Of a stretch of 64,000 nt of DNA, positions 1,575 through 14,637 are shown piece by piece. The position numbers and the translations under genes are program-made. Every line of letters begins with the position of its first letter. The stretch's first letter is position 1. The notes beneath the pieces were generated by a model that did not search any database, was not told the origin of the DNA, and saw only the letters and a list, made by a program, of their open reading frames with translations. The stretch lies in NCBI RefSeq assembly GCF_000014145.1, contig NC_008255.1, forward strand, positions 993,501 through 1,057,500, in the 5' to 3' direction. Source of the stretch: Cytophaga hutchinsonii ATCC 33406. Its GTDB lineage: Bacteria > Bacteroidota > Bacteroidia > Cytophagales > Cytophagaceae.

Positions 1575-2660
1575 ATGAAAGTGTTGATGATAGGGCCTTT
1601 TCCTCCGGTTGTAAATGGAGTTACTGTAAGTAATGATTTTTTATATCATTCTTTAACAAGTCAAGGTGATCAGGTAAACCGTATTAATACAGAAACCGGT
1701 AAAATTGCCTCCATGCAGGGAGATAAAATAAGCCTCCATAAGATCCTTACTTTTTTATCTATTTATAAAAATATATTCAAGGTTTCCGGAAAGGATGTTG
1801 TGTATATGACCATTGGTCAGACATTCTGGGGTGTTGTAAAATATTCACCTTTTATCTGTTATTGCTGGCTTGCAGGTATTCCGTACGTTTTTCACATTCA
1901 TGGGGGATATTTAAGTAAATCGTACTTGAATATGAGCCGCAGAAAACAACGTATCATAAAAGTCTTATTCTCAAAAAGCAGTTGTGTAATAGCTTTGTCT
2001 GAATCGTTGGCAAAAGACATACAAAATATTTTTACGAAAGTAAATATAGCTGTTGTCGAAAATTTTTACGATCAGGAATTGATTCATCCTGCCTTAGAGC
2101 GCACAGTACATAGTGTTCCTCATTTTTTATTTCTGAGTAATTTAATGTTAGGCAAAGGCATTTTAGAATTTCTGGATGCACTCATTATTTTACAGGATGC
2201 TCACAAACTTCATTTTAAGGTTGCGCTTGCAGGCAATATTGAAAGAGGTATGCAAGCAGAAATACAGAAAAGGATTGACCGCTTAAAAGAAGATAAGGTA
2301 TACTTTTTAGGATTAGCAGATTTGCCCAAGAAAAAGGAACTGCTGTATTGGTCTGATATTTTCGTTTTGCCAACCTGGTATATTATGGAAGGGCAGCCAA
2401 TAAGTATTATTGAAGCATATGTTACCGGAAATGTTGTTGTATCAACACATCAGGGAGGTATTGAGGAAATCAGTGGATACGATACATTTTTCAAAACAGA
2501 AGCGCAGAACCCGGCGCTATTAGCAGAAGTACTGTTTAACTCTGTGCAGCAACTGCCGCAGCTAAAGCAGGCTATTGAACAGACTAAAAAGACAACTCAA
2601 ATACGATTTAATTCTAACAGGTTTGTAGAAGAAATTAAAGAAGTACTGTTGAAAAAATGA
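1575..2660 (+). CDS. Glycosyltransferase family 4
   Basis: A 361-residue GT-B protein. It opens with the usual acceptor-side loop (MIGPFPPVVNGVTVS, residues 5-19). The donor domain has SNLMLGKGILEFLDAL and the motif VLPTWYIMEGQPISIIEA, where EGQP replaces the common EGFG, followed by a GG loop (THQGGIEEI). It is 214 bases past the preceding gene, so it probably has its own promoter. It runs convergently toward the exosortase unit, with 57 bases between them. Probably belongs to surface polysaccharide synthesis; substrate unknown. Confidence 0.88.
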   Translation: MKVLMIGPFPPVVNGVTVSNDFLYHSLTSQGDQVNRINTETGKIASMQGDKISLHKILTFLSIYKNIFKVSGKDVVYMTIGQTFWGVVKYSPFICYCWLAGIPYVFHIHGGYLSKSYLNMSRRKQRIIKVLFSKSSCVIALSESLAKDIQNIFTKVNIAVVENFYDQELIHPALERTVHSVPHFLFLSNLMLGKGILEFLDALIILQDAHKLHFKVALAGNIERGMQAEIQKRIDRLKEDKVYFLGLADLPKKKELLYWSDIFVLPTWYIMEGQPISIIEAYVTGNVVVSTHQGGIEEISGYDTFFKTEAQNPALLAEVLFNSVQQLPQLKQAIEQTKKTTQIRFNSNRFVEEIKEVLLKK

Positions 2661-2717
2661 TGTCACCTGTACGGATGTCAGATCTACAGAGTATAGATAA
2701 ACGCTACTGTTAGCTAT

Positions 2718-3299
2718 TTATTTTTTTCTTATCCAGTACAGGAAGAATAGAAAAATACAGATGTAAGAGGAGTAATTAAAAAAGTCGTGACTGATATTTA
2801 CCATTTCTCTGGTAGTCATTCCCCATTTGTTATTGATGAGTGCAGCCACAATCCCCCATACGCGGAGCAGGTTTATGACCTGAATAAAAAGTAATCCGAG
2901 TGGAATATAGATCCATTTTTTAGTTCCTCTGTAAGCAAACATCAGCGCCAGAAAGCTGATCATGATCTTAAAACCCATACATGGAAAAGCAACCCTTAAC
3001 TGCCATCCGGGAATAATTCCGATAGCACCTCCGTCTCTAAATAAGTCCGGGAAGAAAACGATATATGCATCGTATCCTGAAAGTTCCATCATCCATTCGG
3101 TTGGGTAGAGTAAAAAGCTGAGCACCCATTTAAGTACATTGATGTACTTCAGGAAAGGGAAGTAATAGGTTCCGCGCGGGTCTGCCACGCCTATGTACGC
3201 CCAGAAAAGTGTTGTAAGGATAACATAAAAACAAACCAGTTTAAGCAGGAATAGCCAAACAGGTTTGTTTTTGATAAGAAATGCGTTTAATTTTTCCAG
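2718..3299 (-). CDS. Exosortase family protein (copy 1)
   Basis: An inner-membrane cysteine transpeptidase-like protein, expected to cleave and re-anchor proteins carrying a C-terminal PEP/PID-type sorting signal. The catalytic triad of the family is visible: Cys in FPCMGF (residue 107 of the long form), Arg in NLLRVWGI (146) and His in ISHDFFNYSSY (171), each beside a membrane helix. A GTG at 3186-3188 would give 156 residues, but the frame stays open upstream and encodes a convincing first helix (VWLFLLKLVCFYVILTTLFW). No ATG, GTG or TTG lies in that part; I place the start at CTG 3297-3299, giving 193 residues. It sits two codons after the PID-CTERM stop, in the same frame. Short exosortases of this kind are known in Bacteroidota (XrtX, XrtY, XrtF and XrtN types); which type this is, I cannot say. 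Confidence 0.85.
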   Translation of the reverse strand: MEKLNAFLIKNKPVWLFLLKLVCFYVILTTLFWAYIGVADPRGTYYFPFLKYINVLKWVLSFLLYPTEWMMELSGYDAYIVFFPDLFRDGGAIGIIPGWQLRVAFPCMGFKIMISFLALMFAYRGTKKWIYIPLGLLFIQVINLLRVWGIVAALINNKWGMTTREMVNISHDFFNYSSYICIFLFFLYWIRKK

Positions 3300-3305
3300 A
3301 ACAGA

Positions 3306-3521
3306 TTAGGCGTTGCTGCTGCGTTTTTTTATCATACGTGTTACAACCGCTCCAGCACCTGCCAGTAAAAGGAAAGAGGCCCCCCCGTCAATGGGAATTT
3401 CAGGACAGTCAAACGGATCATCCCCGTCGCAAGGCTGTTCAGCACCGCCGGCCTGTGCAAAAGAGGCAATGCTCATCCCGCAAAGGCATATAAAAAGAAT
3501 TGTTTTAGATAATTTTTTCAT
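3306..3521 (-). CDS. PID-CTERM small exported protein (copy 1)
   Basis: A 71-residue probable exosortase substrate. It has an N-terminal Sec signal (residues 1-22, MKKLSKTILFICLCGMSIAS then FAQ). A short acidic, Cys-containing linker follows. The C-terminal tripartite sorting signal is PIDGGASFLLLAGAGAVVT plus a basic tail (RMIKKRSS). The PID-GG-hydrophobic-basic layout matches the Bacteroidota PID-CTERM domain. Little mature protein would remain (about 25 residues between signal and sorting motif), so it may be a peptide-sized surface element. The exosortase follows directly, and the T9SS protein gene ends upstream of it. Confidence 0.88.
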   Translation of the reverse strand: MKKLSKTILFICLCGMSIASFAQAGGAEQPCDGDDPFDCPEIPIDGGASFLLLAGAGAVVTRMIKKRSSNA

Positions 3522-3587
3522 AGTTTTTATAGCTTGTCGATGAAAAACGGAACGGTTGATACCGTTCCGTAATAAATATACAAATAA

Positions 3588-6500
3588 TTATTTAACTGCT
3601 ATTTTAGTTGTGTACAGGTTATTTTCAGAAAGTACCTTTACCACATAAATACCCGCTTTAGCAGATAATTTAGTAGTGAAGGAACCCGCATCCGTTGTTC
3701 CTTCCGCGATTCTGTTTCCTGTTAGGTCATACACTTCCACCTGCTGAATGTTGCTGTTCATTGTAACAACCAGCATATCTTCATTCATGTAAGCTTTTAA
3801 AGCATTATTTGTTTTTGCTTTAGAAGCTGAAGTAGTAATGTTTTCAGTGCCTACACGTAGTATGTATGGTGTTGCCGGGTTTGTTGCCACGGTTACGGCA
3901 GGGTTCTGTGTTAAGTTGTGCAGTGCTCCATCCGGGAAGATCAGGTATACCGATTTGAAAGTATCAAAAGCGTCTTTGTTTGTGAAAGACAGGGTATAGT
4001 TAGAAGTAGTGGTAGTAGTGATGTTCAAGGGAATATCAACGGTATTTGTAAGGGGCGCCAGGCTGTTAATGATCAGTTTTGTTGTATCGGCTAATGTATA
4101 CAGGTTAGGAGTGTTCGTTCCAGTATTGCGCATTTTACCGGCATCATATCCCAGATCAAAACCATTTGTAGCAGCATCAGTAAACAGGATAACGGTTTCA
4201 TCGGTAAATGTACCGTTTGACGCCTGTAAGCGGATGATGTTATCAGCCACAGCGGTACGGGCATAGGAAGTAGTCTGTGCAACATCTCTGGCACTTGAAG
4301 GGATTGTTACCGAAGCGGTTCCGCCCGTTCCGTCAGTTTCCACCTGGAAGCCCTGCATGGGTGCCACATATCCATTCACAATTACACCAGTACCGATTCC
4401 TGTTACAGAAGAATATACATTGAATGTATTGTTGTTAAACACATAGTAATTACCTGAAGTACCTGATCCGGTAATTCCACCTAAGAATAAGTTAGACGGA
4501 TAAGGGTTACCTGCAAAGAAGTCTTTTACAGAAGTATTTACCGGGCAAGAAGAAGAATAGCTTGCAGCAGCATGATTATAAGTACCCGTGAATGTAACGG
4601 TGTTCACTCCGTTTGCAGGCGTTCCTGAAGCAGGGAAGAACATAGAAAGCGCATCCCCCTGTGCCAGCGGAGTACTCATGTCATAAATACCAAAGAATTT
4701 GTTTGTAGAGCAGTCCAGATCAAGTAAACGGGATTGGCTTCCTGATACTACAGGATATTCATCGGCGATGTCAGCAGCGGTAACACCAGCTAAGGGAGAG
4801 GCAATATAATGCGTTTTGGCCGGTACAAAGTTACGGATCACTTTCATGTTTCCGCTGATCGAACCAGAACCAGCAGCGTCGATTTTAGCTGTTGCCAGGT
4901 TCAGGGTAAGATTTCCGCCGGCGGTAAGTGTACCGGCGGTAAGTGTTACCAGTCCGTTTACGCGCAGCGGAGAAGATAATGTAAGAGAGGAGTTGTTGAG
5001 ATTTAGCCCTTCAAATATTTCACCTCCTGTAGTTGAAAGAGTCTGTGCTGCGGTACCGTTGAATGTTACGGTTTTGCCTGTTTCCGTAAATGCTGCAGCA
5101 GAGTAGCTGGTCCAGTTACCGGCTACACTTAACTCATAAGCAGCAAGTGCTAATACCGAAGTACCGCTCAGGGTAAGGTTGTGTACATCCAGGTTGCCAT
5201 CAGGTGTTTTAGTGCCAGAACCGCTTAATGTAAGGTTTGCATATGGGGTAGGATTGGCAGTAGTGATTGTCTGTGCTGCACCGGCATAGTTTACAGTACT
5301 TGCAGCGCCCAGCGTAAGGGATGTTGCTCCTGCATCAATGGCATTGGATCCTGATGTACCGTAAAGTCCATCAGGATGTACGAGCGAAATTGTTCCATTG
5401 ATTGTTATATCTCCTGTACCGATGATGGTATTGTTTGTTTTAGCAAGAATTAATGTGCCTTCTGAAGTAAGGCTGGAATTATAATCCAGATATAGGAAGA
5501 AATCGTTTGTGCTGTTGATCTCAAGAGTAGAGCCGGATTCAATAGCGATTTCATATCCGGAAAAATCTATAGCATATAAAGTTGTTGGTGCAGATGCACT
5601 TAATATTAAATGTGTATTATTAAAAATAGAAAGTCCGCTAAATACATCCTGATCAGTAACATTTGTCACCGTAATAGTACCGCCGCTGTTAAAGATCAAC
5701 GAATCCGAACCGTCAAAGGCCGGTGAATTTCTGTTAGGTGTCCAGCTTGCAGGATTTGCCCATGATCCGGAACTTCCTGCTGACCAGGTATAAATACCTT
5801 TATTGGTTTTGACGGATGTTGAACCGCCAGGCAGTAAATAGTTTTCAGTATTTGTACCAGCCAGTTTGTTGAATTCAAACACGGAGAAATAATACGTTGT
5901 AGATGGATTTAAGCCGGTAACTGTTACCGCATTTCCAGAACCGATGTAAACAGGGAAAGCTGCACCTCCAATAGGAGTTGAGGATGCTCCGAAAACACTT
6001 GAGGCATTGTAGGAGGTAAGATCAGTCGGTGCAGCGCTGATCGGGCTTGCTTCCTGAGCAAGTACTAAACGTTGAGAACCATTTCCGCCCGTAAAGCTAA
6101 GTGTTGCAGAATTGATTGTAGCTGAAGTAACAGCTATAGAAGATTGCATCGTTGGACTGGCAATGGCAACATTTCCGTCGATTTGAATGTAATCTGTGAT
6201 TAAGGATTTCGGAGAAGTTACTGCACCTGTATATCCATACAAACGGAATGTAACAGTGGAGGTAGACGAGACATCCGGAATATCAAGCGTAAAAGCAAGT
6301 GATGAAGTAGTTACTGTTGCAGGAGCTATAGACGCACTTGTCGCAGTAGAATATCCGGATCCGTTGTCATATGCTACAGTAAGATTTTTTGCGCCACCAT
6401 TTCCCCTGGCTGCTTTTACAATGACCTGACTGATATTTACTTCATATCCAACGGCAGGTGTTACTGAAAATTCTAAGTAAGCATTACTGTTTGCAGGATA

Positions 6501-6749
6501 GGTTAACGACGCTGGCCAGTTAGAGGTGGACGTTAATGTAATTGCTCCTGATCCAATTGTGCAGGTAAGACCTGCACCTGTAGTAGTAGCATTCAATGTT
6601 ACATTTGAAACTGACGCGGTGCCTGTTTGTGTAGAACATGTTCCTGAATTAAAATTGTACGTACCTATTGTCTGTCCATAACCTAATGAGCAGATGGAGG
6701 TAAGTAAAAATAATAACAATAGTTTTTTTGCTGAGTACAAATATTTCAT
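3588..6749 (-). CDS. Large T9SS-sorted surface protein (copy 1)
   Basis: About 1053 residues. The frame runs on to 6779, but I take the ATG at 6747-6749 (MKYLYSAKKLLLLFLL) because it begins a standard signal peptide ending GYGQ and matches the start of the second copy. After the signal come a Ser/Thr-rich beta region, a fibronectin III-like stretch (NPSTTYYFSVFEFN), a region of repeated beta strands with LTLSG-type turns, and a C-terminal T9SS type A sorting domain (VYDLTGNRIAEG ... GIYVVKVLSE). It should cross the outer membrane through T9SS and be anchored or released. No enzymatic motif is recognised. Its C-terminal two-thirds is almost identical to the copy; the N-terminal third differs. 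Confidence 0.9.
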   Translation of the reverse strand: MKYLYSAKKLLLLFLLTSICSLGYGQTIGTYNFNSGTCSTQTGTASVSNVTLNATTTGAGLTCTIGSGAITLTSTSNWPASLTYPANSNAYLEFSVTPAVGYEVNISQVIVKAARGNGGAKNLTVAYDNGSGYSTATSASIAPATVTTSSLAFTLDIPDVSSTSTVTFRLYGYTGAVTSPKSLITDYIQIDGNVAIASPTMQSSIAVTSATINSATLSFTGGNGSQRLVLAQEASPISAAPTDLTSYNASSVFGASSTPIGGAAFPVYIGSGNAVTVTGLNPSTTYYFSVFEFNKLAGTNTENYLLPGGSTSVKTNKGIYTWSAGSSGSWANPASWTPNRNSPAFDGSDSLIFNSGGTITVTNVTDQDVFSGLSIFNNTHLILSASAPTTLYAIDFSGYEIAIESGSTLEINSTNDFFLYLDYNSSLTSEGTLILAKTNNTIIGTGDITINGTISLVHPDGLYGTSGSNAIDAGATSLTLGAASTVNYAGAAQTITTANPTPYANLTLSGSGTKTPDGNLDVHNLTLSGTSVLALAAYELSVAGNWTSYSAAAFTETGKTVTFNGTAAQTLSTTGGEIFEGLNLNNSSLTLSSPLRVNGLVTLTAGTLTAGGNLTLNLATAKIDAAGSGSISGNMKVIRNFVPAKTHYIASPLAGVTAADIADEYPVVSGSQSRLLDLDCSTNKFFGIYDMSTPLAQGDALSMFFPASGTPANGVNTVTFTGTYNHAAASYSSSCPVNTSVKDFFAGNPYPSNLFLGGITGSGTSGNYYVFNNNTFNVYSSVTGIGTGVIVNGYVAPMQGFQVETDGTGGTASVTIPSSARDVAQTTSYARTAVADNIIRLQASNGTFTDETVILFTDAATNGFDLGYDAGKMRNTGTNTPNLYTLADTTKLIINSLAPLTNTVDIPLNITTTTTSNYTLSFTNKDAFDTFKSVYLIFPDGALHNLTQNPAVTVATNPATPYILRVGTENITTSASKAKTNNALKAYMNEDMLVVTMNSNIQQVEVYDLTGNRIAEGTTDAGSFTTKLSAKAGIYVVKVLSENNLYTTKIAVK

Positions 6750-7083
6750 AGCAATACTTTTAAAATAAGATTTTCTCAATAATTGTAATTCAAATGTTTA
6801 TCATACGTTAACACATTTGAATCAATTAATTAACTTATGTTAAAAATACAAATAGATTTTGTTATCTTAAGTTAAATGTGATAAAAATATTACTTTTTAA
6901 ATATCCTGAAAGATTATATATAACAAATCAAATAAATAATATAAATGAGGTTGGATTGAAGTGTTTAGAGCCATATAAATGGTAAATATGGGAATGTGTT
7001 TCTCGTAGTTAAAAAATCATAAAAATACATTAATTCAAATTAATGTATATAATAGATTATCTTATGTTCTTTTTCAGTCCTAT
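6750..7083. other. AT-rich spacer between the two duplicated units
   Basis: No gene seen in 334 bases. It should carry the promoter of the minus-strand surface protein gene (start 6749) and the 3' flank of exosortase copy 2. A palindrome with 11-bp arms and a two-base centre lies at 7025-7048 (atacattaatt / aattaatgtat), just past that exosortase's end; it could be a weak terminator or a protein-binding site. No equivalent sequence follows exosortase copy 1, so this DNA is not part of the duplicated unit. Confidence 0.5.
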
Positions 7084-7665
7084 TTATTTTTTTCTTATCC
7101 AGAACAGGAAGAATAGAAAAATACAGATGTAAGAGGAGTAATTAAAAAAGTCGTGACTGATATTTACCATTTCTCTGGTAGTCATTCCCCATTTGTTATT
7201 GATAAGTGCAGCCACAATCCCCCATACGCGGAGCAGGTTTATGACCTGAATAAAAAGTAATCCGAGTGGAATATAGATCCATTTTTTAGTTCCTCTGTAA
7301 GCAAACATCAGCGCCAGAAAGCTGATCATGATCTTAAAACCCATACATGGAAAAGCAACCCTTAACTGCCATCCGGGAATAATTCCGATAGCACCTCCGT
7401 CTTTAAATAAGTCCGGGAAGAAAACGATATATGCATCGTATCCTGAAAGTTCCATCATCCATTCGGTTGGGTAGAGTAAAAAGCTGAGCACCCATTTAAG
7501 TACATTGATGTACTTCAGGAAAGGGAAGTAATAGGTTCCGCGCGGGTCTGCCACGCCGATATACGCCCAGAAAAGTGTTGTAAGGATAACATAAAAACAA
7601 ACCAGTTTAAGCAGGAATAGCCAAACAGGTTTGTTTTTGATAAGAAATGCGTTTAATTTTTCCAG
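7084..7665 (-). CDS. Exosortase family protein (copy 2)
   Basis: Nearly identical to the exosortase at 2718-3299. The protein differences I see are Lys for Arg in DLFKDG and Phe for Tyr in FWIRKK near the C-terminus. The Cys, Arg and His triad is kept (FPCMGF, NLLRVWGI, ISHDFFNY). The same start problem recurs: a GTG at 7552-7554 would remove the first membrane helix, while an in-frame CTG at 7663-7665 restores it and lies two codons after the PID-CTERM stop. That both copies keep this frame open favours the longer protein. Predicted to process the PID-CTERM protein encoded just upstream. Confidence 0.85.
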   Translation of the reverse strand: MEKLNAFLIKNKPVWLFLLKLVCFYVILTTLFWAYIGVADPRGTYYFPFLKYINVLKWVLSFLLYPTEWMMELSGYDAYIVFFPDLFKDGGAIGIIPGWQLRVAFPCMGFKIMISFLALMFAYRGTKKWIYIPLGLLFIQVINLLRVWGIVAALINNKWGMTTREMVNISHDFFNYSSYICIFLFFLFWIRKK

Positions 7666-7671
7666 AACAGA

Positions 7672-7887
7672 TTAGGCGTTGCTGCTGCGTTTTTTTATCA
7701 TACGTGTTACAACCGCTCCAGCACCTGCCAGTAAAAGGAAAGAGGCCCCCCCGTCAATGGGAATTTCAGGACAGTCAAACGGATCATCCCCGTCGCAAGG
7801 CTGCTCAGCACCGCCGGCCTGTGCAAAAGAGGCAATGCTCATCCCGCAAAGGCATATAAAAAGAATTGTTTTAGATAACTTTTTCAT
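7672..7887 (-). CDS. PID-CTERM small exported protein (copy 2)
   Basis: Its 71 residues are identical in sequence to those encoded at 3306-3521, although the DNA has silent differences. That argues that the peptide, including its acidic linker EQPCDGDDPFDCPE, is under selection or has been homogenised recently. It has a Sec signal at residues 1-22 and, at the C-terminus, PIDGG plus a hydrophobic helix and basic tail. Upstream of it is the stop of the large T9SS protein gene, and downstream is the exosortase, in the same order as copy 1. Confidence 0.88.
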   Translation of the reverse strand: MKKLSKTILFICLCGMSIASFAQAGGAEQPCDGDDPFDCPEIPIDGGASFLLLAGAGAVVTRMIKKRSSNA

Positions 7888-7953
7888 AGTTTTTATAGCT
7901 TGTCAATGAAAAACGGAACGGTTAATACCGTTCCGTAATAAATATACAAATAA

Positions 7954-10900
7954 TTATTTAACTGCTATTTTAGTTGTGTACAGGTTATTTTCAGAAAGCA
8001 CCTTTACCACATAAATACCCGCTTTAGCAGATAATTTAGTAGTGAAGGAACCCGCATCCGTTGTTCCTTCCGCGATTCTGTTTCCTGTTAGGTCATACAC
8101 TTCCACCTGCTGAATGTTGCTGTTCATTGTAACAACCAGCATATCTTCGTTCATGTAAGCTTTTAAAGCATTATTTGTTTTTGCTTTAGAAGCTGAAGTA
8201 GTAATGTTTTCAGTGCCTACACGTAGTATGTATGGTGTTGCCGGGTTTGTTGCCACGGTTACGGCAGGGTTCTGTGTTAAGTTGTGCAGTGCTCCATCCG
8301 GGAAGATCAGGTATACCGATTTGAAAGTATCAAAAGCGTCTTTGTTTGTGAAAGACAGGGTATAGTTAGAAGTAGTGGTAGTAGTGATGTTCAAGGGAAT
8401 ATCAACGGTATTTGTAAGGGGCGCCAGGCTGTTAATGATCAGTTTTGTTGTATCGGCTAATGTATACAGGTTAGGAGTGTTCGTTCCAGTATTGCGCATT
8501 TTACCGGCATCATATCCCAGATCAAAACCATTTGTAGCAGCATCAGTAAACAGGATAACGGTTTCATCGGTAAATGTACCGTTTGACGCCTGTAAGCGGA
8601 TGATGTTATCAGCCACAGCGGTACGGGCATAGGAAGTAGTCTGTGCAACATCTCTGGCACTTGAAGGGATTGTTACCGAAGCGGTTCCGCCCGTTCCGTC
8701 AGTTTCCACCTGGAAGCCCTGCATGGGTGCCACATATCCATTCACAATTACACCAGTACCGATTCCTGTTACAGAAGAATATACATTGAATGTATTGTTG
8801 TTAAACACATAGTAATTACCTGAAGTACCTGATCCGGTAATTCCACCTAAGAATAAGTTAGACGGATAAGGGTTACCTGCAAAGAAGTCTTTTACAGAAG
8901 TATTTACCGGGCAAGAAGAAGAATAGCTTGCAGCAGCATGATTATAAGTACCCGTGAATGTAACGGTGTTCACTCCGTTTGCAGGCGTTCCTGAAGCAGG
9001 GAAGAACATAGAAAGCGCATCCCCCTGTGCCAGCGGAGTACTCATGTCATAAATACCAAAGAATTTGTTTGTAGAGCAGTCCAGATCAAGTAAACGGGAT
9101 TGGCTTCCTGATACTACAGGATATTCATCGGCGATGTCAGCAGCGGTAACACCAGCTAAGGGAGAGGCAATATAATGCGTTTTGGCCGGTACAAAGTTAC
9201 GGATCACTTTCATGTTTCCGCTGATTGAACCAGAACCAGCAGCGTCGATTTTAGCTGTTGCCAGGTTCAGGGTAAGATTTCCGCCGGAAGCAAGTGTACC
9301 GGCGGTAAGTGTTACCAGTCCGTTTACGCGCAGCGGAGAAGATAATGTAAGAGAGGAGTTGTTGAGATTTAGCCCTTCAAATATTTCACCTCCTGTAGTT
9401 GAAAGAGTCTGTGCTGCGGTACCGTTGAATGTTACGGTTTTGCCTGTTTCCGTAAATGCTGCAGCAGAGTAGCTGGTCCAGTTACCGGCTACACTTAACT
9501 CATAAGCAGCAAGTGCTAATACCGAAGTACCGCTCAGGGTAAGGTTGTGTACATCCAGGTTGCCATCAGGTGTTTTAGTGCCAGAACCGCTTAATGTAAG
9601 GTTTGCATATGGGGTAGGATTGGCAGTAGTGATTGTCTGTGCTGCACCGGCATAGTTTACAGTACTTGCAGCGCCCAGCGTAAGGGACGTTGCTCCTGCA
9701 TCAATGGCATTGGATCCTGATGTACCGTAAAGTCCATCAGGATGTACGAGCGAAATTGTTCCATTGATTGTTATATCTCCTGTACCGATGATGGTATTGT
9801 TTGTTTGCGCAAGAGTTAATGTGCCGTTGTTCAGCAACTCCACACCTGTATCCAGATAAAGAAAGAAATCGTTTGTGCTGTTGACTTCCAATTCGGAACC
9901 GGTTTGTACAGATATTTCTGTAGAGTTGAAATCAACTACATAAAGAATTGTCGGTGCGCTGGCTTTTAAAATAACATGCGTATTATTTAAAACACTTAAT
10001 CCGCTCAATACATCCTGGTCTGTTACATTTGTCACCGTAATAGTACCGCCGCTGTTAAAGATCAACGAATCCGAACCGTCAAAGGCCGGTGAATTTCTGT
10101 TAGGTGTCCAGCTTGCAGGATTTGCCCAGGATCCCGAACTTCCTGCTGTCCAGGTGTAAGTGCCTTTATTTGTCTTGCCGGATGTTGAACCGCCAGGCAG
10201 TAAATAGTTTTCAGTATTTGTACCAGCCAGTTTGTTGAATTCAAACACCGAGAAATGATAGGTTGTTGAAGGATTTAATCCGGTAACTGTTACCGCGTTT
10301 CCAGAACCGATGTAAACAGGGAAAGCAGTACCAATAGGTGTTGTAGATGCTCCATATGTACTGGAAGCATTATAGGAGGTGAGATCTACAGGTGTAGCGC
10401 TGATCGGGCTTGCTTCCTGAGCGAGTACTATGCGTTGTGAACCATTGCCACCGGTAAAATTTAACGAGATGGAATTAAGGGTTTTGGATATAACAGAAAT
10501 AGAAGATTGCACCGTTGGACTGGCAATGGCAACATAACCGTCAATTTCAATATAATCTGTAATTAAGGTTTTTGTAGCTGTAACACCTCCATTGTAGCCA
10601 TACAGACGAAAATTAATAGTGGAGGTAGACGAGACATCCGGAATATCAAGAGGAAAAGCTGTTGATGTCAAGGTTACAGCAGTTGCAGCAGTTGAGGCAC
10701 TGGTTATGCTTGAATATCCGGATCCTTTGTCATAAGCTACAGTAAGCGTACGTGGTCCGCCATTACCTCTTGCAGCTTTAACAATGATCTGGCTGATGTT
10801 TACTTCATAGCCGGCAGCTGGAGTGACAGAAAGCTGTAAATAAGTATTTGAATTGTCTGGATATGATAGAGTTCCAGGCCAGCTGGATGATGTTAGCGTA

Positions 10901-11109
10901 ATAGCGCCAGTGCCGATTGCACAAGATAATCCACTTGCTACAGAGGCCGTGTTTAGTGTAACATTTGAGACCGAAGCCGTACCTGTTTGTGTAGAACAGG
11001 TGCCGGAATTGAAATTGTACGTACCTATTGTTTGTCCAAAACTCCATGTGCTCACACAGGCAAGAACGAATAATAGCACTATTTTTTTAGCTGAGTAAAA
11101 ATATTTCAT
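7954..11109 (-). CDS. Large T9SS-sorted surface protein (copy 2)
   Basis: A 1051-residue paralogue of the protein at 3588-6749. The signal peptide (MKYFYSAKKIVLLFVLACVS, then SFGQ) and N-terminal third differ at many positions from copy 1. From roughly residue 440 onward the two are almost identical, including the T9SS type A C-terminal domain (VEVYDLTGNRIAEG ... YTTKIAVK). A fibronectin III-like stretch (NPSTTYHFSVFEFN) precedes the repeated beta-strand region. Expected at the cell surface or released. Function unknown; an adhesin or matrix component is a reasonable guess given the neighbouring polysaccharide genes. Confidence 0.9.
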   Translation of the reverse strand: MKYFYSAKKIVLLFVLACVSTWSFGQTIGTYNFNSGTCSTQTGTASVSNVTLNTASVASGLSCAIGTGAITLTSSSWPGTLSYPDNSNTYLQLSVTPAAGYEVNISQIIVKAARGNGGPRTLTVAYDKGSGYSSITSASTAATAVTLTSTAFPLDIPDVSSTSTINFRLYGYNGGVTATKTLITDYIEIDGYVAIASPTVQSSISVISKTLNSISLNFTGGNGSQRIVLAQEASPISATPVDLTSYNASSTYGASTTPIGTAFPVYIGSGNAVTVTGLNPSTTYHFSVFEFNKLAGTNTENYLLPGGSTSGKTNKGTYTWTAGSSGSWANPASWTPNRNSPAFDGSDSLIFNSGGTITVTNVTDQDVLSGLSVLNNTHVILKASAPTILYVVDFNSTEISVQTGSELEVNSTNDFFLYLDTGVELLNNGTLTLAQTNNTIIGTGDITINGTISLVHPDGLYGTSGSNAIDAGATSLTLGAASTVNYAGAAQTITTANPTPYANLTLSGSGTKTPDGNLDVHNLTLSGTSVLALAAYELSVAGNWTSYSAAAFTETGKTVTFNGTAAQTLSTTGGEIFEGLNLNNSSLTLSSPLRVNGLVTLTAGTLASGGNLTLNLATAKIDAAGSGSISGNMKVIRNFVPAKTHYIASPLAGVTAADIADEYPVVSGSQSRLLDLDCSTNKFFGIYDMSTPLAQGDALSMFFPASGTPANGVNTVTFTGTYNHAAASYSSSCPVNTSVKDFFAGNPYPSNLFLGGITGSGTSGNYYVFNNNTFNVYSSVTGIGTGVIVNGYVAPMQGFQVETDGTGGTASVTIPSSARDVAQTTSYARTAVADNIIRLQASNGTFTDETVILFTDAATNGFDLGYDAGKMRNTGTNTPNLYTLADTTKLIINSLAPLTNTVDIPLNITTTTTSNYTLSFTNKDAFDTFKSVYLIFPDGALHNLTQNPAVTVATNPATPYILRVGTENITTSASKAKTNNALKAYMNEDMLVVTMNSNIQQVEVYDLTGNRIAEGTTDAGSFTTKLSAKAGIYVVKVLSENNLYTTKIAVK

Positions 11110-11507: not shown

Positions 11508-12260
11508 ATGAATAATTTAACCATCAGGTATCTATTTTTAATAGCCGTATTTGCGTCTTTTTCCTGCGTATCACATAAAAAAGTGACTTTATTTCAAAAT
11601 AAAACGGTTGAGGTGGGGGATACGCTGTATCAAATGCGTTTTGCCTATAAAATACAGCCAAGAGATGTATTATTTGTAAGCATTACCAGCTACAATCAAA
11701 AAGCCACAGATTTTTTTAACGTGAAAACATCAGCAGAAACGGATGATCCGGTAGGAGTTGGTTATAAAGTTTCCGAAGAAGGATATATTACAATCCCGAT
11801 TCTGGATAGTGTATCAGTAAAAGGATTAAGTGTGCATGAAGTGCAGCAGAAGATTGCGCTGAAATTGAAGGATTATATTTCAGATGCATATGTATTGGTT
11901 GATCTGGCTAATTTTAATTTTACTGTGCTGGGTGATGTGAAATCGCCTGGCATGAAAACAGTATTAAAAGATAAAACCACTCTTATAGAAGCAATTGCTA
12001 TGGGGGGGGATTTTGCAGATTATGGAAACAGAAGAATCGTAAAACTGATACGGACAGAAGGCTCGAACTCTGTGAGCGTACAGTTGGATTTTACCGATAT
12101 TACATTGATAAATTCGCCCTACTATTATATTATGCCCAACGACGTAATATACGTAGAACCGCTGAAGGCAAAGATTGTGCGGTCAAACCTTTCACAGGTA
12201 ACTTTATTAGTAAGTCTTACAAGTCTTGCGGTTGTATTAATTAACATTGTAGGCAGATAG
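11508..12260 (+). CDS. Polysaccharide export outer-membrane lipoprotein, Wza-like
   Basis: 250 residues. The signal ends in a lipobox (FASFSC, Cys 20), so it is a lipoprotein. A polysaccharide export domain follows (YKIQPRDVLFVSITSYNQ through KLKDYISDAYVLVDL), then an SLBB-like domain (NFTVLGDVKSPGMKTVLKDK). The C-terminal hydrophobic segment (LLVSLTSLAVVLINIVG) probably crosses the outer membrane, as in Wza/Kps-type export pores. It starts the main operon; the Wzc-like gene begins 16 bases after its stop, so the two should act as one export machine across the envelope. Confidence 0.92.
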   Translation: MNNLTIRYLFLIAVFASFSCVSHKKVTLFQNKTVEVGDTLYQMRFAYKIQPRDVLFVSITSYNQKATDFFNVKTSAETDDPVGVGYKVSEEGYITIPILDSVSVKGLSVHEVQQKIALKLKDYISDAYVLVDLANFNFTVLGDVKSPGMKTVLKDKTTLIEAIAMGGDFADYGNRRIVKLIRTEGSNSVSVQLDFTDITLINSPYYYIMPNDVIYVEPLKAKIVRSNLSQVTLLVSLTSLAVVLINIVGR

Positions 12261-12276
12261 TATATTATAAGTAAGA

Positions 12277-14637
12277 ATGGCAAAGAAAGAAAATAATACC
12301 ATAGATTTTAAAGGGATTATACAAAAGCTACTATCCTACTGGATGTTTTTTCTGGTTTCTGTAAGTATCTGTTATATAGCGGCACGGGTTTATTTACATT
12401 ATACTACTGCTACATACAGGGCAGCTACCACAATTTTGATCAAAGATGATACAAAATCATTAGGGCTTGAAGAATCATCGTTATTTAATGAGAACAAAAA
12501 GGTAGGGAATGAATTGGCGCTTATAAAATCCTATGATCTTGTTGAAAAGACGATCAATCAGTTGGATTTTGATGTTTCTTATTATCATAAAGGTGATATT
12601 AAAGACGTAGAGCTGTATCACAAAAATCCGTTTACGGTATTACTGGATTCTGGTGCACACCATCACGGTCCTATCTACATCGATTTCAAATCGCCTACAA
12701 CGTTTCAATTGCGAATAGGGGAAAAAAACGTAATCAACGAAATCTATGCCGTTAATACGCCGATACATTCTAATGGGTTAAATTTTACTATCGTATGTGA
12801 CTCATTGAACCAGCACCGCCCGGTAAATTATAATGTATATTTTATCATTCATAAACATGAACAGCTGGTACAGCAATATACCAACTACATGGGCATTGCA
12901 CGTGCAGGTAAAGAAGCACCCGGTATTGTGGAACTTTCTATAATGGGTACCGTGCCCGAAAAATTGGTAGCCTTTTTAAATACGCATACACAAACGTATA
13001 TCAAAAGCGGTATTGATGAAAAAAACATTACAGCTATAAATACGATACGGTTTATTGATGAACAATTAGGAGAGGTTTCAAAATCATTGAACTCTGCTGA
13101 AACGGATTTAGAGTCTTTCCGAAAAAAACATAAAGTGATGGACATCAGTTCATCGGCTGAAGGCATCAAAGCAAACCTGGATGATCTGGAAAAACAAAAA
13201 TCCATGGAGCTGCTCAAAGCCAAATATTACGAATACCTCTATGCGTATCTGAGACAGGATAAAAACTTAAGTGAAGTTATTGCCCCGCATGTAATGGGCA
13301 TCGACGATAATTTATTGACGGAGTTAATCAGCGAGTTGATCGCATTGAATAATGAACGGAATGTAATCATGCGTTCTTCCACTACCAAAAATCCTTATTT
13401 AAAAGAACTGGACGGCAAGATTGCACATACAAAAGAAAGTTTGCTGGAAAGCATACGGAATGTGATCAGTACGGCTCAGATTACGCTTAATGATCTTAAC
13501 CAGCGCTTAGCCAAATATGAAACACAGTTATCTTTTCTGCCGCAAAACGAACGTACGTTAGTTGATATTCAGAGACGATTTAATTTAAATGACAATATTT
13601 ACAATTATTTATTACAAAAACGTGCAGAATCCGGTATTGCCAAAGCGTCAAACATTGCGCAATGTAAAGTAGTAGATGCCGCAAAAATATTTAATGTAGG
13701 TATGGTTGGCCCCAATGGAAATCTTATCCGTTCCCTTGCGCTGTTGATCGGATTTTTGGTTCCTATAGGTTTTATTATTGTACGCGAGGTTTTGAATAAT
13801 AAGGTCATGACTAAAGATGACGTTATCCGCAATACCAATATTCCTATTTTAGGTGTAATCGGTAATACAAATACAAAAGAAAATAATCTGGTTGTTTTGA
13901 ACAGACCCAAATCAGCTATTTCTGAAGCATTCCGTTCTATCCGGATTAACTTACAGTACTTAGCGCCGGATAAAGAACATAAAATAATTCTGGTAACATC
14001 TTCTGTAAGCGGAGAAGGGAAAAGCTTTTTCTCTACAAACTTAGCTTCCATAATGGCTTTGTCCGGCAAAAAAACATTGTTAATAGGTGCCGATTTACGT
14101 AAGCCTAAACTCTTTACTGATTTTGGACTCGACAATACTGTAGGTTTAAGTTCATGGCTCATAAATGCCGTAAAACTGGATGATGTTATTTTTAAAACAC
14201 AACAGGAAAATTTATTTATTCTGCCTGCGGGTCCAATCCCTCCTAATCCAGCTGAACTGTTGTCTGCAGCAAAATTAGACGAATTAGCAGCAGCCGTTCA
14301 AAAAGACTTCGATTATATTATTGTGGATACATCTCCGATCGGTCTTGTTTCGGATAGTCATATGCTGATGAAGTATTCTCATGTGAATTTGTATATTATC
14401 CGTCATAGTGTAACTGAAATTAAATTGCTGGATCGTTTAAACGATTTATACGAGGAGAAAAAAATAAAGAATCTTGCTATTGTTGTCAACGACCTGAAAG
14501 AGAAATCCGGCACATTCGGTTATGGTTACGGTTATGGTTACGGCTATGGTTACGGTTATGGCTATTACGAAGAGGATAAACGTAACACTTCTTTTTTAAA
14601 GAAATTTATCTCGAAATTGCCCTTCAGAAAAAAATAA
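12277..14637 (+). CDS. Wzc-like polysaccharide co-polymerase / tyrosine autokinase
   Basis: 786 residues, full length for a Wzc fusion. The N-terminal Wzz-type domain is bounded by two membrane helices (about 14-38 and 486-508) with a long periplasmic coiled-coil part between them. The cytoplasmic BY-kinase domain shows Walker A (SSVSGEGKS, ~575), Walker A' (IGADLRKPKL, ~602) and Walker B (IIVDTSPIG, ~681). The tail has eight Gly-Tyr pairs plus one extra Tyr (about 748-764), the expected autophosphorylation cluster in an unusually regular form. It controls chain length and export together with the Wza-like lipoprotein upstream. Confidence 0.93.
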   Translation: MAKKENNTIDFKGIIQKLLSYWMFFLVSVSICYIAARVYLHYTTATYRAATTILIKDDTKSLGLEESSLFNENKKVGNELALIKSYDLVEKTINQLDFDVSYYHKGDIKDVELYHKNPFTVLLDSGAHHHGPIYIDFKSPTTFQLRIGEKNVINEIYAVNTPIHSNGLNFTIVCDSLNQHRPVNYNVYFIIHKHEQLVQQYTNYMGIARAGKEAPGIVELSIMGTVPEKLVAFLNTHTQTYIKSGIDEKNITAINTIRFIDEQLGEVSKSLNSAETDLESFRKKHKVMDISSSAEGIKANLDDLEKQKSMELLKAKYYEYLYAYLRQDKNLSEVIAPHVMGIDDNLLTELISELIALNNERNVIMRSSTTKNPYLKELDGKIAHTKESLLESIRNVISTAQITLNDLNQRLAKYETQLSFLPQNERTLVDIQRRFNLNDNIYNYLLQKRAESGIAKASNIAQCKVVDAAKIFNVGMVGPNGNLIRSLALLIGFLVPIGFIIVREVLNNKVMTKDDVIRNTNIPILGVIGNTNTKENNLVVLNRPKSAISEAFRSIRINLQYLAPDKEHKIILVTSSVSGEGKSFFSTNLASIMALSGKKTLLIGADLRKPKLFTDFGLDNTVGLSSWLINAVKLDDVIFKTQQENLFILPAGPIPPNPAELLSAAKLDELAAAVQKDFDYIIVDTSPIGLVSDSHMLMKYSHVNLYIIRHSVTEIKLLDRLNDLYEEKKIKNLAIVVNDLKEKSGTFGYGYGYGYGYGYGYGYYEEDKRNTSFLKKFISKLPFRKK

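Follow-up and report, generated by a model that had tools for sequence, protein, structure and literature searches.

A window of 64,000 nucleotides from the genome of Cytophaga hutchinsonii ATCC 33406 (NC_008255.1, positions 993,501 to 1,057,500) contains two 4.37 kb units, which are arranged head to tail on the minus strand with a repeat spacing of 4,366. Each unit encodes, in this order, a large protein of approximately 1,050 residues with the C-terminal signal of the type IX secretion system (T9SS), a 71-residue PID-CTERM peptide and an exosortase. An evolutionary coupling of such peptides, exosortases and RemA-like T9SS proteins is well supported by the comparison of genomes described below. 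The unit may be a surface-display cassette, in which the large T9SS protein has the peptide as its dedicated partner, possibly a tag or an anchor acting in trans; we propose this tentatively, giving it somewhat less than an even chance. It had been predicted that two units of approximately 4 kb carry the same three genes in the same order and on the same strand, and this is confirmed for both units by the coordinates and family models. In copy 1, the gene for the large protein (3588..6749, 1,053 residues) is followed by those for the PID-CTERM microprotein (3306..3521, 71 residues) and the exosortase (2718..3299), all on the minus strand. In copy 2, the corresponding genes are located at 7954..11109 (1,051 residues), 7672..7887 and 7084..7665, also on the minus strand. 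Both large proteins are assigned to type A of the T9SS substrates, with the C-terminal sorting domain TIGR04183 above its cut-off (32.6 bits for each copy against 23). Copy 1 was scored from a TTG codon at 6779, which is a mere extension of the ATG start at 6749. The copy 1 peptide matches NF046080 with 33.1 bits against a cut-off of 26, and the copy 2 peptide, which is assigned to the same model, is identical to it.

The linkage of the three genes was analyzed in the order Cytophagales, for which 242 genomes were searched. From the match lists, 120 loci (L021-L140) were picked, those of the same family first and then those with high scores across genera. They represent part of the listed places, and with two stretches of C. 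hutchinsonii itself they make up 122 loci. Genes were called as mechanical open reading frames (ORFs), and a neighbour was defined as a same-strand ORF of at least 300 residues, located between a 200 bp overlap and a 450 bp gap. An in-house profile detects 99 PID-CTERM genes in these loci, of which 98 are small and one, of 979 residues, was set aside. A gene with a T9SS tail is located directly upstream of 71 of the 98 small PID-CTERM genes. Of the others, 2 directly precede a T9SS gene, 14 are preceded by a large gene of another kind and 11 by no large gene. As a control, a T9SS gene is found upstream of 27 of the 463 other small genes; this number is, if anything, too high, because the control was drawn from the same loci. 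The 71 PID-CTERM genes that follow a T9SS gene are spread over 50 of the 63 genomes, and the gap between the two genes is 120 bp or less in 64 of the 71 pairs (median 49). Because the in-house T9SS and PID-CTERM profiles were partly built from these loci, TIGR04183 was run separately, and it matches 78 of the 86 neighbouring tails at E 0.01.

An exosortase gene is located directly downstream of 26 PID-CTERM genes, and 20 of these 26 form the complete triplet, in 17 genomes and with the three sets of C. hutchinsonii included. Thus, the three-gene order recurs elsewhere, which supports the original prediction. Of the 72 PID-CTERM genes without an exosortase gene directly downstream, 51 are still preceded by a T9SS gene. 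The original prediction had described the unit as a self-contained module; this is not supported as stated, since the exosortase is only loosely linked. Large genes unlinked to the exosortase gene, which had been named as the finding that would reduce the unit to a chance duplication, occur often, yet the peptide gene is kept beside the large gene; we therefore read this arrangement as that of an enzyme acting in trans rather than as chance. Likewise, a one-to-one ratio of exosortase to peptide is found in C. hutchinsonii (3:3), but the idea does not extend to genomes such as G213 and G144, with 12 and 7 PID-CTERM matches, respectively, for one exosortase. Forty loci from other orders of the class (L141-L180) were picked from match lists in the same way and analyzed with a slightly different neighbour rule (ORF of at least 250 residues, overlap up to 150 bp, gap up to 450 bp). 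Of their 40 PID-CTERM genes, 20 come after a gene for a T9SS protein or the module, 18 come before an exosortase gene, and 6 have both neighbours. In 33 comparisons between loci within the same genome, the identity of the peptides tracks that of the module of the large protein described below (Spearman 0.81).

The three components also co-occur at the level of genomes. In the 242 genomes of the order, the exosortase is detected in 105, the PID-CTERM peptide in 77 and the module in 97; 75 of the 77 PID-positive genomes have the exosortase and 72 have the module, and 83 genomes have both the exosortase and the module. In 296 genomes of the class, which we take to be Bacteroidia of GTDB, the exosortase is detected in 184, the peptide in 134 and the module in 176. 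The exosortase and the module are present in 131 and 129 of the 134 PID-positive genomes, respectively, and the module is present in 163 of the 184 exosortase-positive genomes; 127 genomes have all three and 98 have none. The presence of a T9SS was considered as the hidden cause of this co-occurrence and rejected, because the association persists, with hardly any change in the tables, within the 288 of the 296 genomes that have SprA, a T9SS marker. When one genome is drawn per family (73 families, 200 draws), the median table for exosortase and module is 38, 4, 4 and 27. The exosortase is variably present in 17 families; in these, the module is found in 63 of 79 exosortase-positive genomes, as compared with 7 of 60 negative ones (within-family p about 2e-16). 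The contribution of kinship to the co-occurrence is reduced, not removed, by the family draws and within-family tables. PID-like genes of weak score are present in three f18 genomes that lack an NF046080 match. These weak peptides are encoded at L049 (G018), L052 (G216) and L059 (G060), directly after a T9SS gene in the latter two. The NF046080 model may be too strict for these genomes, and part of the missing PID-CTERM genes may be missed peptides.

The large proteins share a module of approximately 380 residues. In copy 2, this module, a RemA/RemZ-like C-terminal region without the T9SS tail, is located by alignment at 8242..9384 on the minus strand, and its position in copy 1 (3876..5018, minus strand) was derived from that in copy 2 with the repeat spacing of 4,366. 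Of the 86 neighbouring proteins, 78 form one BLAST component with alignments of more than 120 residues, longer than the T9SS tail, and their matches to the window protein fall mostly within its residues 440-1051. A GNPYPS-like motif is present 295-354 residues ahead of the C-terminus in 67 of 90 neighbours, and the stricter motif GNP[YF]P[SA] in 58 of the 90. In an alignment of 39 module rows, Gly145, Asn171 and Pro172 (numbering of the first row) are invariant. At E 0.01, no Pfam family is assigned to any of these 39 rows; with NCBIfam, one row has a single weak match to an unrelated enzyme, and a phrogs scan of the copy 1 protein gives no family. A profile of 44 rows with the window protein as the first row matches RemA (8gl6_D, E 5.5e-31) and RemZ (8gl8_D, E 6.6e-31) over the module and the tail. 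Beyond these two, the profile finds a glycoside hydrolase (38.5 bits) and seven matches of less than 30 bits, most of which fall on the tail. In PMC10994853, RemA is described as an adhesin for gliding, and RemZ as a RemA homologue trapped in the T9SS translocon. In the solved RemA and RemZ entries, the tail alone is modelled (76 and 75 residues, respectively). An AlphaFold model of residues 571-1051 of the window protein (481 residues) has a mean predicted local distance difference test score of 73.8 and a predicted template modelling (TM) score of 0.56. Its structural alignment with VIA-align covers mainly the T9SS tail, with the tails of RemA and RemZ as the best matches (Z 10.5 and 9.8), while many unrelated immunoglobulin-like domains also reach Z 8-9.5; a Foldseek search with the module model gives low TM-scores. 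Judged from these sequence comparisons, the large protein is probably a RemA-like type A T9SS protein, with a variable N-terminal part, followed by a C-terminal module that is conserved and by a T9SS signal.

The PID-CTERM protein has a hydrophobic N-terminal signal, and its C-terminus consists of PIDGG, a hydrophobic stretch and the basic tail RMIKKR. By a simple rule, a signal peptidase cut is predicted before Gln in 112 of 138 small PID-CTERM proteins. The predicted mature part, up to the end of the motif, has a median length of 22.5 residues (range 12-68, n=112), and its longest forms probably represent wrong starts. It consists of 24% Pro, 22% Gly and 10% Asp, and contains neither Lys nor Arg in 101 of the 112 proteins. 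The peptide is therefore predicted to be nearly all tag, with almost no cargo. A CWPPPC-like stretch precedes the motif in 18 of the 138 proteins, those inspected being from outside the order (L142-L180), and possibly forms a disulfide loop near the cleavage site. The 979-residue protein that was set aside from the counts (L135 of G197, 2001-4937, minus strand) differs from the microproteins in that it combines a long hydrophobic part at the N-terminus with a PID-like tag at its end. It was considered as a fused form and rejected, with a weak match to a VIT domain (23.0 bits against a cut-off of 26.5) and no T9SS family in the same scan.

The exosortases of the window match TIGR04178 with 42.6 bits (copy 1) and 42.2 bits (copy 2) against a cut-off of 23, and copy 1, the only copy scanned with PF09721, matches this family with 29.9 bits against 25.7. 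They had been predicted to bear the catalytic triad. Indeed, in 24 aligned exosortases, two of which are the window copies, Cys107 and Arg146 (numbering of the 193-residue form) are invariant and His171 is kept in 90% or more; these three residues are presumably the catalytic ones. The window enzymes score 44.3 and 43.9 bits with the exosortase X model NF046081 (cut-off 170) and 49.6 and 50.3 bits with the exosortase Y model NF046083 (cut-off 160), and the 193-residue reading scores 38.1 and 62.2 bits, respectively. These scores are far below the cut-offs, which places the enzymes outside both curated families. Each of the two models recognises all of 24 enzymes encoded next to a PID-CTERM gene, with E values no higher than 0.001. 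A search of PDB sequences with an exosortase profile gives no match at E 0.1, and a scan of the genome contigs with the exosortase as query finds no relative. The reading frame of the exosortase begins directly past the stop codon of the PID-CTERM gene and in the same frame. The enzyme has 156 residues when it starts at the mechanically chosen GTG (3188 in copy 1, 7554 in copy 2). However, the 37 codons ahead of this GTG align with the first membrane segment of the relatives, and contain no ATG, GTG or TTG in either copy. The start is therefore unusual. Translation is likely to begin at a CTG (3299 in copy 1, 7665 in copy 2), which gives 193 residues in either copy, or to be coupled to that of the peptide gene.

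The identity between the two units is a mosaic. Identity in windows of 100 columns is 98-100%, with one window of 96%, across 5445-2746 and 9811-7112. The homogenised tract, whose borders are approximate, occupies 2720..5446 in copy 1 and 7086-9812 in copy 2, and this near-identity extends from about codon 441 of the T9SS gene to the end of the exosortase gene (~2.7 kb). Within it, the copies differ by 5 silent and 2 replacement changes in T9SS codons 441-1051, by 2 silent changes in the peptide gene and by 3 silent and 2 replacement changes in the exosortase gene. The first ~430 T9SS codons are 62-79% identical, apart from a 300-bp patch at 5944-5645 of 91-97% identity, and outside the three genes the identity falls to 27-54%, gaps counted, where the copies are no longer alike. 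The comparison of substitution rates that had been suggested gives, per silent (dS) and replacement (dN) site, dS 1.35 and dN 0.17 for T9SS codons 31-206, 0.80 and 0.11 for codons 207-290, 0.36 and 0.11 for codons 291-400, and 0.72 and 0.36 for codons 401-440; dN is lower than dS in every block outside the homogenised tract, codons 1-30 included. We read these results as an old duplication of the three genes, in which the C-terminal part of the large protein, the peptide and the enzyme were probably gene-converted later. Thus, the predicted tandem duplication is real but mosaic. The identity of the two peptides despite silent DNA changes, to which attention had been drawn, is likewise correct, but it is not notable in itself, because the whole homogenised tract shows such silent changes. 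Since the peptide gene is located inside this tract, the identity of the peptide alone is no sign of selection, and selection was dismissed as an unneeded cause.

C. hutchinsonii has a closed genome of 4,433,218 bases, which contains three PID-CTERM matches above the cut-off and three exosortase genes, every pair being adjacent. The third set is located 26 kb outside the window. Its PID-CTERM/exosortase pair sits after a gene for a 2,424-residue T9SS protein, which ends at 966,942, and before a Wza-like gene, and five further T9SS paralogues are arranged in a row ahead of the 2,424-residue protein. These six large T9SS proteins (940976-966942, L017 and L018; 909-2,424 residues) match the window protein, and only the last of them directly precedes a PID-CTERM gene and an exosortase gene. 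In its own genome, the large protein has eight matches at E 0.001, all of which fall at the two units of the window and at the third set, and the next-best match of copy 2 is copy 1. A locus of G071, a genome of the same genus, has matching neighbours and keeps the module, the peptide and the exosortase, while the N-terminal half of its T9SS protein gives no BLAST match. On the sequences compared, both between the tandem copies and against G071, it is the N-terminal region of the T9SS protein that varies within the cassette.

The divergence of peptide and module in step, the gene counts and the variable N-terminus of the T9SS protein favour a role of the peptide as a partner or an anchor. In the mechanism that we propose, cleavage by signal peptidase I and the exosortase would leave a short stretch of the peptide rich in Pro, Gly and Asp, with the exosortase cutting at PIDGG. 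By analogy with sortases, the exosortase may also attach the peptide to a molecule of the envelope. The adhesin would use the processed peptide as an anchor or a docking piece, namely as a sorting tag in trans, and one exosortase, near or far, may serve the peptides. The T9SS signal and the exosortase tag are both C-terminal, so that a single chain could hardly bear the two, and a second chain would be needed to supply a T9SS protein with an exosortase tag. The more specific possibility that sorting requires two chains, in which a separate tag microprotein acts as a membrane or polysaccharide anchor in trans and two incompatible C-terminal signals are thereby combined in one complex, is rather doubtful, though not far-fetched. 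Deletion of xrtF or Fjoh_1449 in Flavobacterium johnsoniae greatly reduces biofilm and abolishes zorbs, as does deletion of porU, porV or porZ, and spreading is lost in the sprA mutant alone among nine mutants (PMC10936215). The likeness of the xrtF and porU-type phenotypes is, by analogy, a hint toward a partner role.

Several results weigh against a partner or anchor role. Twenty-five of the 98 small PID-CTERM genes have no recognised T9SS gene on either side. Among the matches listed, at least 74 of 150 module genes have a listed PID-CTERM gene within 1.3 kb downstream. When 80 of the 502 relatives were sampled by module (all named Hymenobacter, Hymenobacteraceae, Adhaeribacter or Rufibacter), a PID-CTERM gene is directly downstream in 32 of the 80 loci and absent in 46, and 2 loci end too soon. 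In the class, a PID-CTERM match is missing from 47 of the 176 module-positive genomes, 36 of the 47 being exosortase-positive, and 13 of the 176 lack an exosortase; the module in turn is missing in 5 of 134 PID-positive and 21 of 184 exosortase-positive genomes. The 33 within-genome comparisons are not independent, since some involve sister species or copies that are almost identical; moreover, joint divergence is expected of linked genes in any case. The link to RemA and RemZ depends on a profile in which the window protein is combined with 43 sequences, mostly from Hymenobacter. The window T9SS protein alone gives no match in PDB, and single-sequence PDB searches with three T9SS proteins give none at E 0.01. 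The F. johnsoniae phenotypes concern XrtF and not the window enzyme. Finally, we infer cleavage, conjugation, binding of the peptide to the adhesin and anchoring, and no result shows them.

Of the other explanations, the one that survives best is that the exosortase and the peptide serve the assembly or attachment of an exopolysaccharide, to which RemA-like lectins bind, so that the genes share regulation while their products make no contact. Wza-like genes adjoin both the window cassette and the third set, and a Wzc-like gene adjoins the window cassette. Exosortases are tied to exopolysaccharide loci in Haft 2006 (PMC1569441), and RemA is titled a mobile cell surface lectin in a reference cited by PMC10994853. 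A Pfam scan of the window proteins turned up no lectin family. The predicted polysaccharide neighbourhood is correct for this locus, where the Wza-like and Wzc-like genes are divergent from the cassettes, but not in general: a Wza-like gene is present in 8 of 60 loci (L021-L080) and in 5 of 60 (L081-L140), counting only the genes of the locus, and this share is far below that of T9SS neighbours. Polysaccharide coupling is an unlikely explanation, although it deserves serious consideration.

It is improbable that the uncut microprotein escorts the T9SS precursor as a chaperone or hand-over factor in the inner membrane, with cleavage ending the interaction or recycling the factor. The compactness of the gene pair, with 64 of 71 gaps not exceeding 120 bp, and the hydrophobic ends and basic tail of the PID-CTERM protein would fit such a role. 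However, among the matches listed, an adjacent PID-CTERM gene is missing for roughly half of the module genes, and reporters with the type A signal of RemA or AmyB are secreted without a co-expressed partner, although any native partners that exist were present (PMC12618676). There is only a small chance that the processed peptide has a role of its own in signalling, protection or adhesion, for which it would be released or displayed, with the T9SS protein merely in the same surface regulon. The tiny mature part without Lys or Arg in 101 of 112 proteins and the predicted cut at Gln in 112 of 138 agree with this idea, but the regular pairing with one T9SS family is left unexplained. Chance duplication and chance neighbourhood can practically be dismissed: tandem duplication is common and 25 of 98 PID-CTERM genes lack a recognised T9SS neighbour, but the numbers of 71 of 98 against 27 of 463, the within-family p of about 2e-16 and the repeated adjacency outside the order argue strongly against it.

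The proposed partnership of peptide and large protein resembles several known systems in part. The exosortase X/PID-CTERM system (NF046081, NF046080, NF046082) shares the PID-CTERM signal, the exosortase family and the catalytic residues, but the window enzymes are below the curated cut-offs and the model names, by which this comparison was made, contain no T9SS partner. The PEP-CTERM/EpsH system shares the tripartite C-terminal tag, the membrane exosortase and, at the window locus, the polysaccharide export neighbours; the tag is fused to cargo there (PMC1569441), whereas the tagged protein of the window is approximately the tag alone and the T9SS protein forms a chain of its own. RemA and RemZ of F. 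johnsoniae are alike in the C-terminal module and the T9SS signal, by the family profile, but the word exosortase is absent from PMC10994853 and PMC12618676. SprB, a type B T9SS adhesin, likewise has a cognate partner that decides its fate and is encoded immediately downstream, SprF. According to PMC12618676, SprF is a shuttle for the type B signal, whereas the putative partner in the window is an exosortase-tagged microprotein beside a type A signal. GlyGly-CTERM and rhombosortase are likewise paired many to one, and where an enzyme is dedicated to one substrate, the two tend to be encoded side by side (PMC3237569), but rhombosortase is a protease of the rhomboid family rather than an exosortase, and the tag is on the cargo.

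A literature search, with most subscription journals outside its scope, finds nothing on PID-CTERM, the GNPYPS module or C. hutchinsonii exosortases. The results suggest that, in the class, the RemA-like T9SS proteins evolve together with the exosortases and the cargo-poor PID-CTERM peptides as a single group, which is new within the literature searched. The study of xrtF and biofilm in F. johnsoniae left the exosortase substrates to future work (PMC10936215). The present results join two envelope sorting systems and provide the exosortases of Bacteroidota with candidate substrates, the PID-CTERM peptides, and with candidate partners, the RemA-like T9SS proteins. If the tag acts in trans, this would be a categorically new kind of sorting, and if the peptide is the anchor of the adhesin, surface retention of type A proteins would become testable by single gene deletions in strains kept in laboratories.

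The polysaccharide genes beside the cassettes are located on the plus strand. The divergent neighbour, at 11508..12260, encodes a Wza-like polysaccharide export protein (PF02563, E 1.5e-14). The gene at 12277..14637 encodes a Wzc-like protein with chain-length and tyrosine-kinase domains, with PF13807 and PF13614 above their cut-offs and PF02706 just below. This Wzc-like protein contains a long Gly-Tyr repeat close to its C-terminus.

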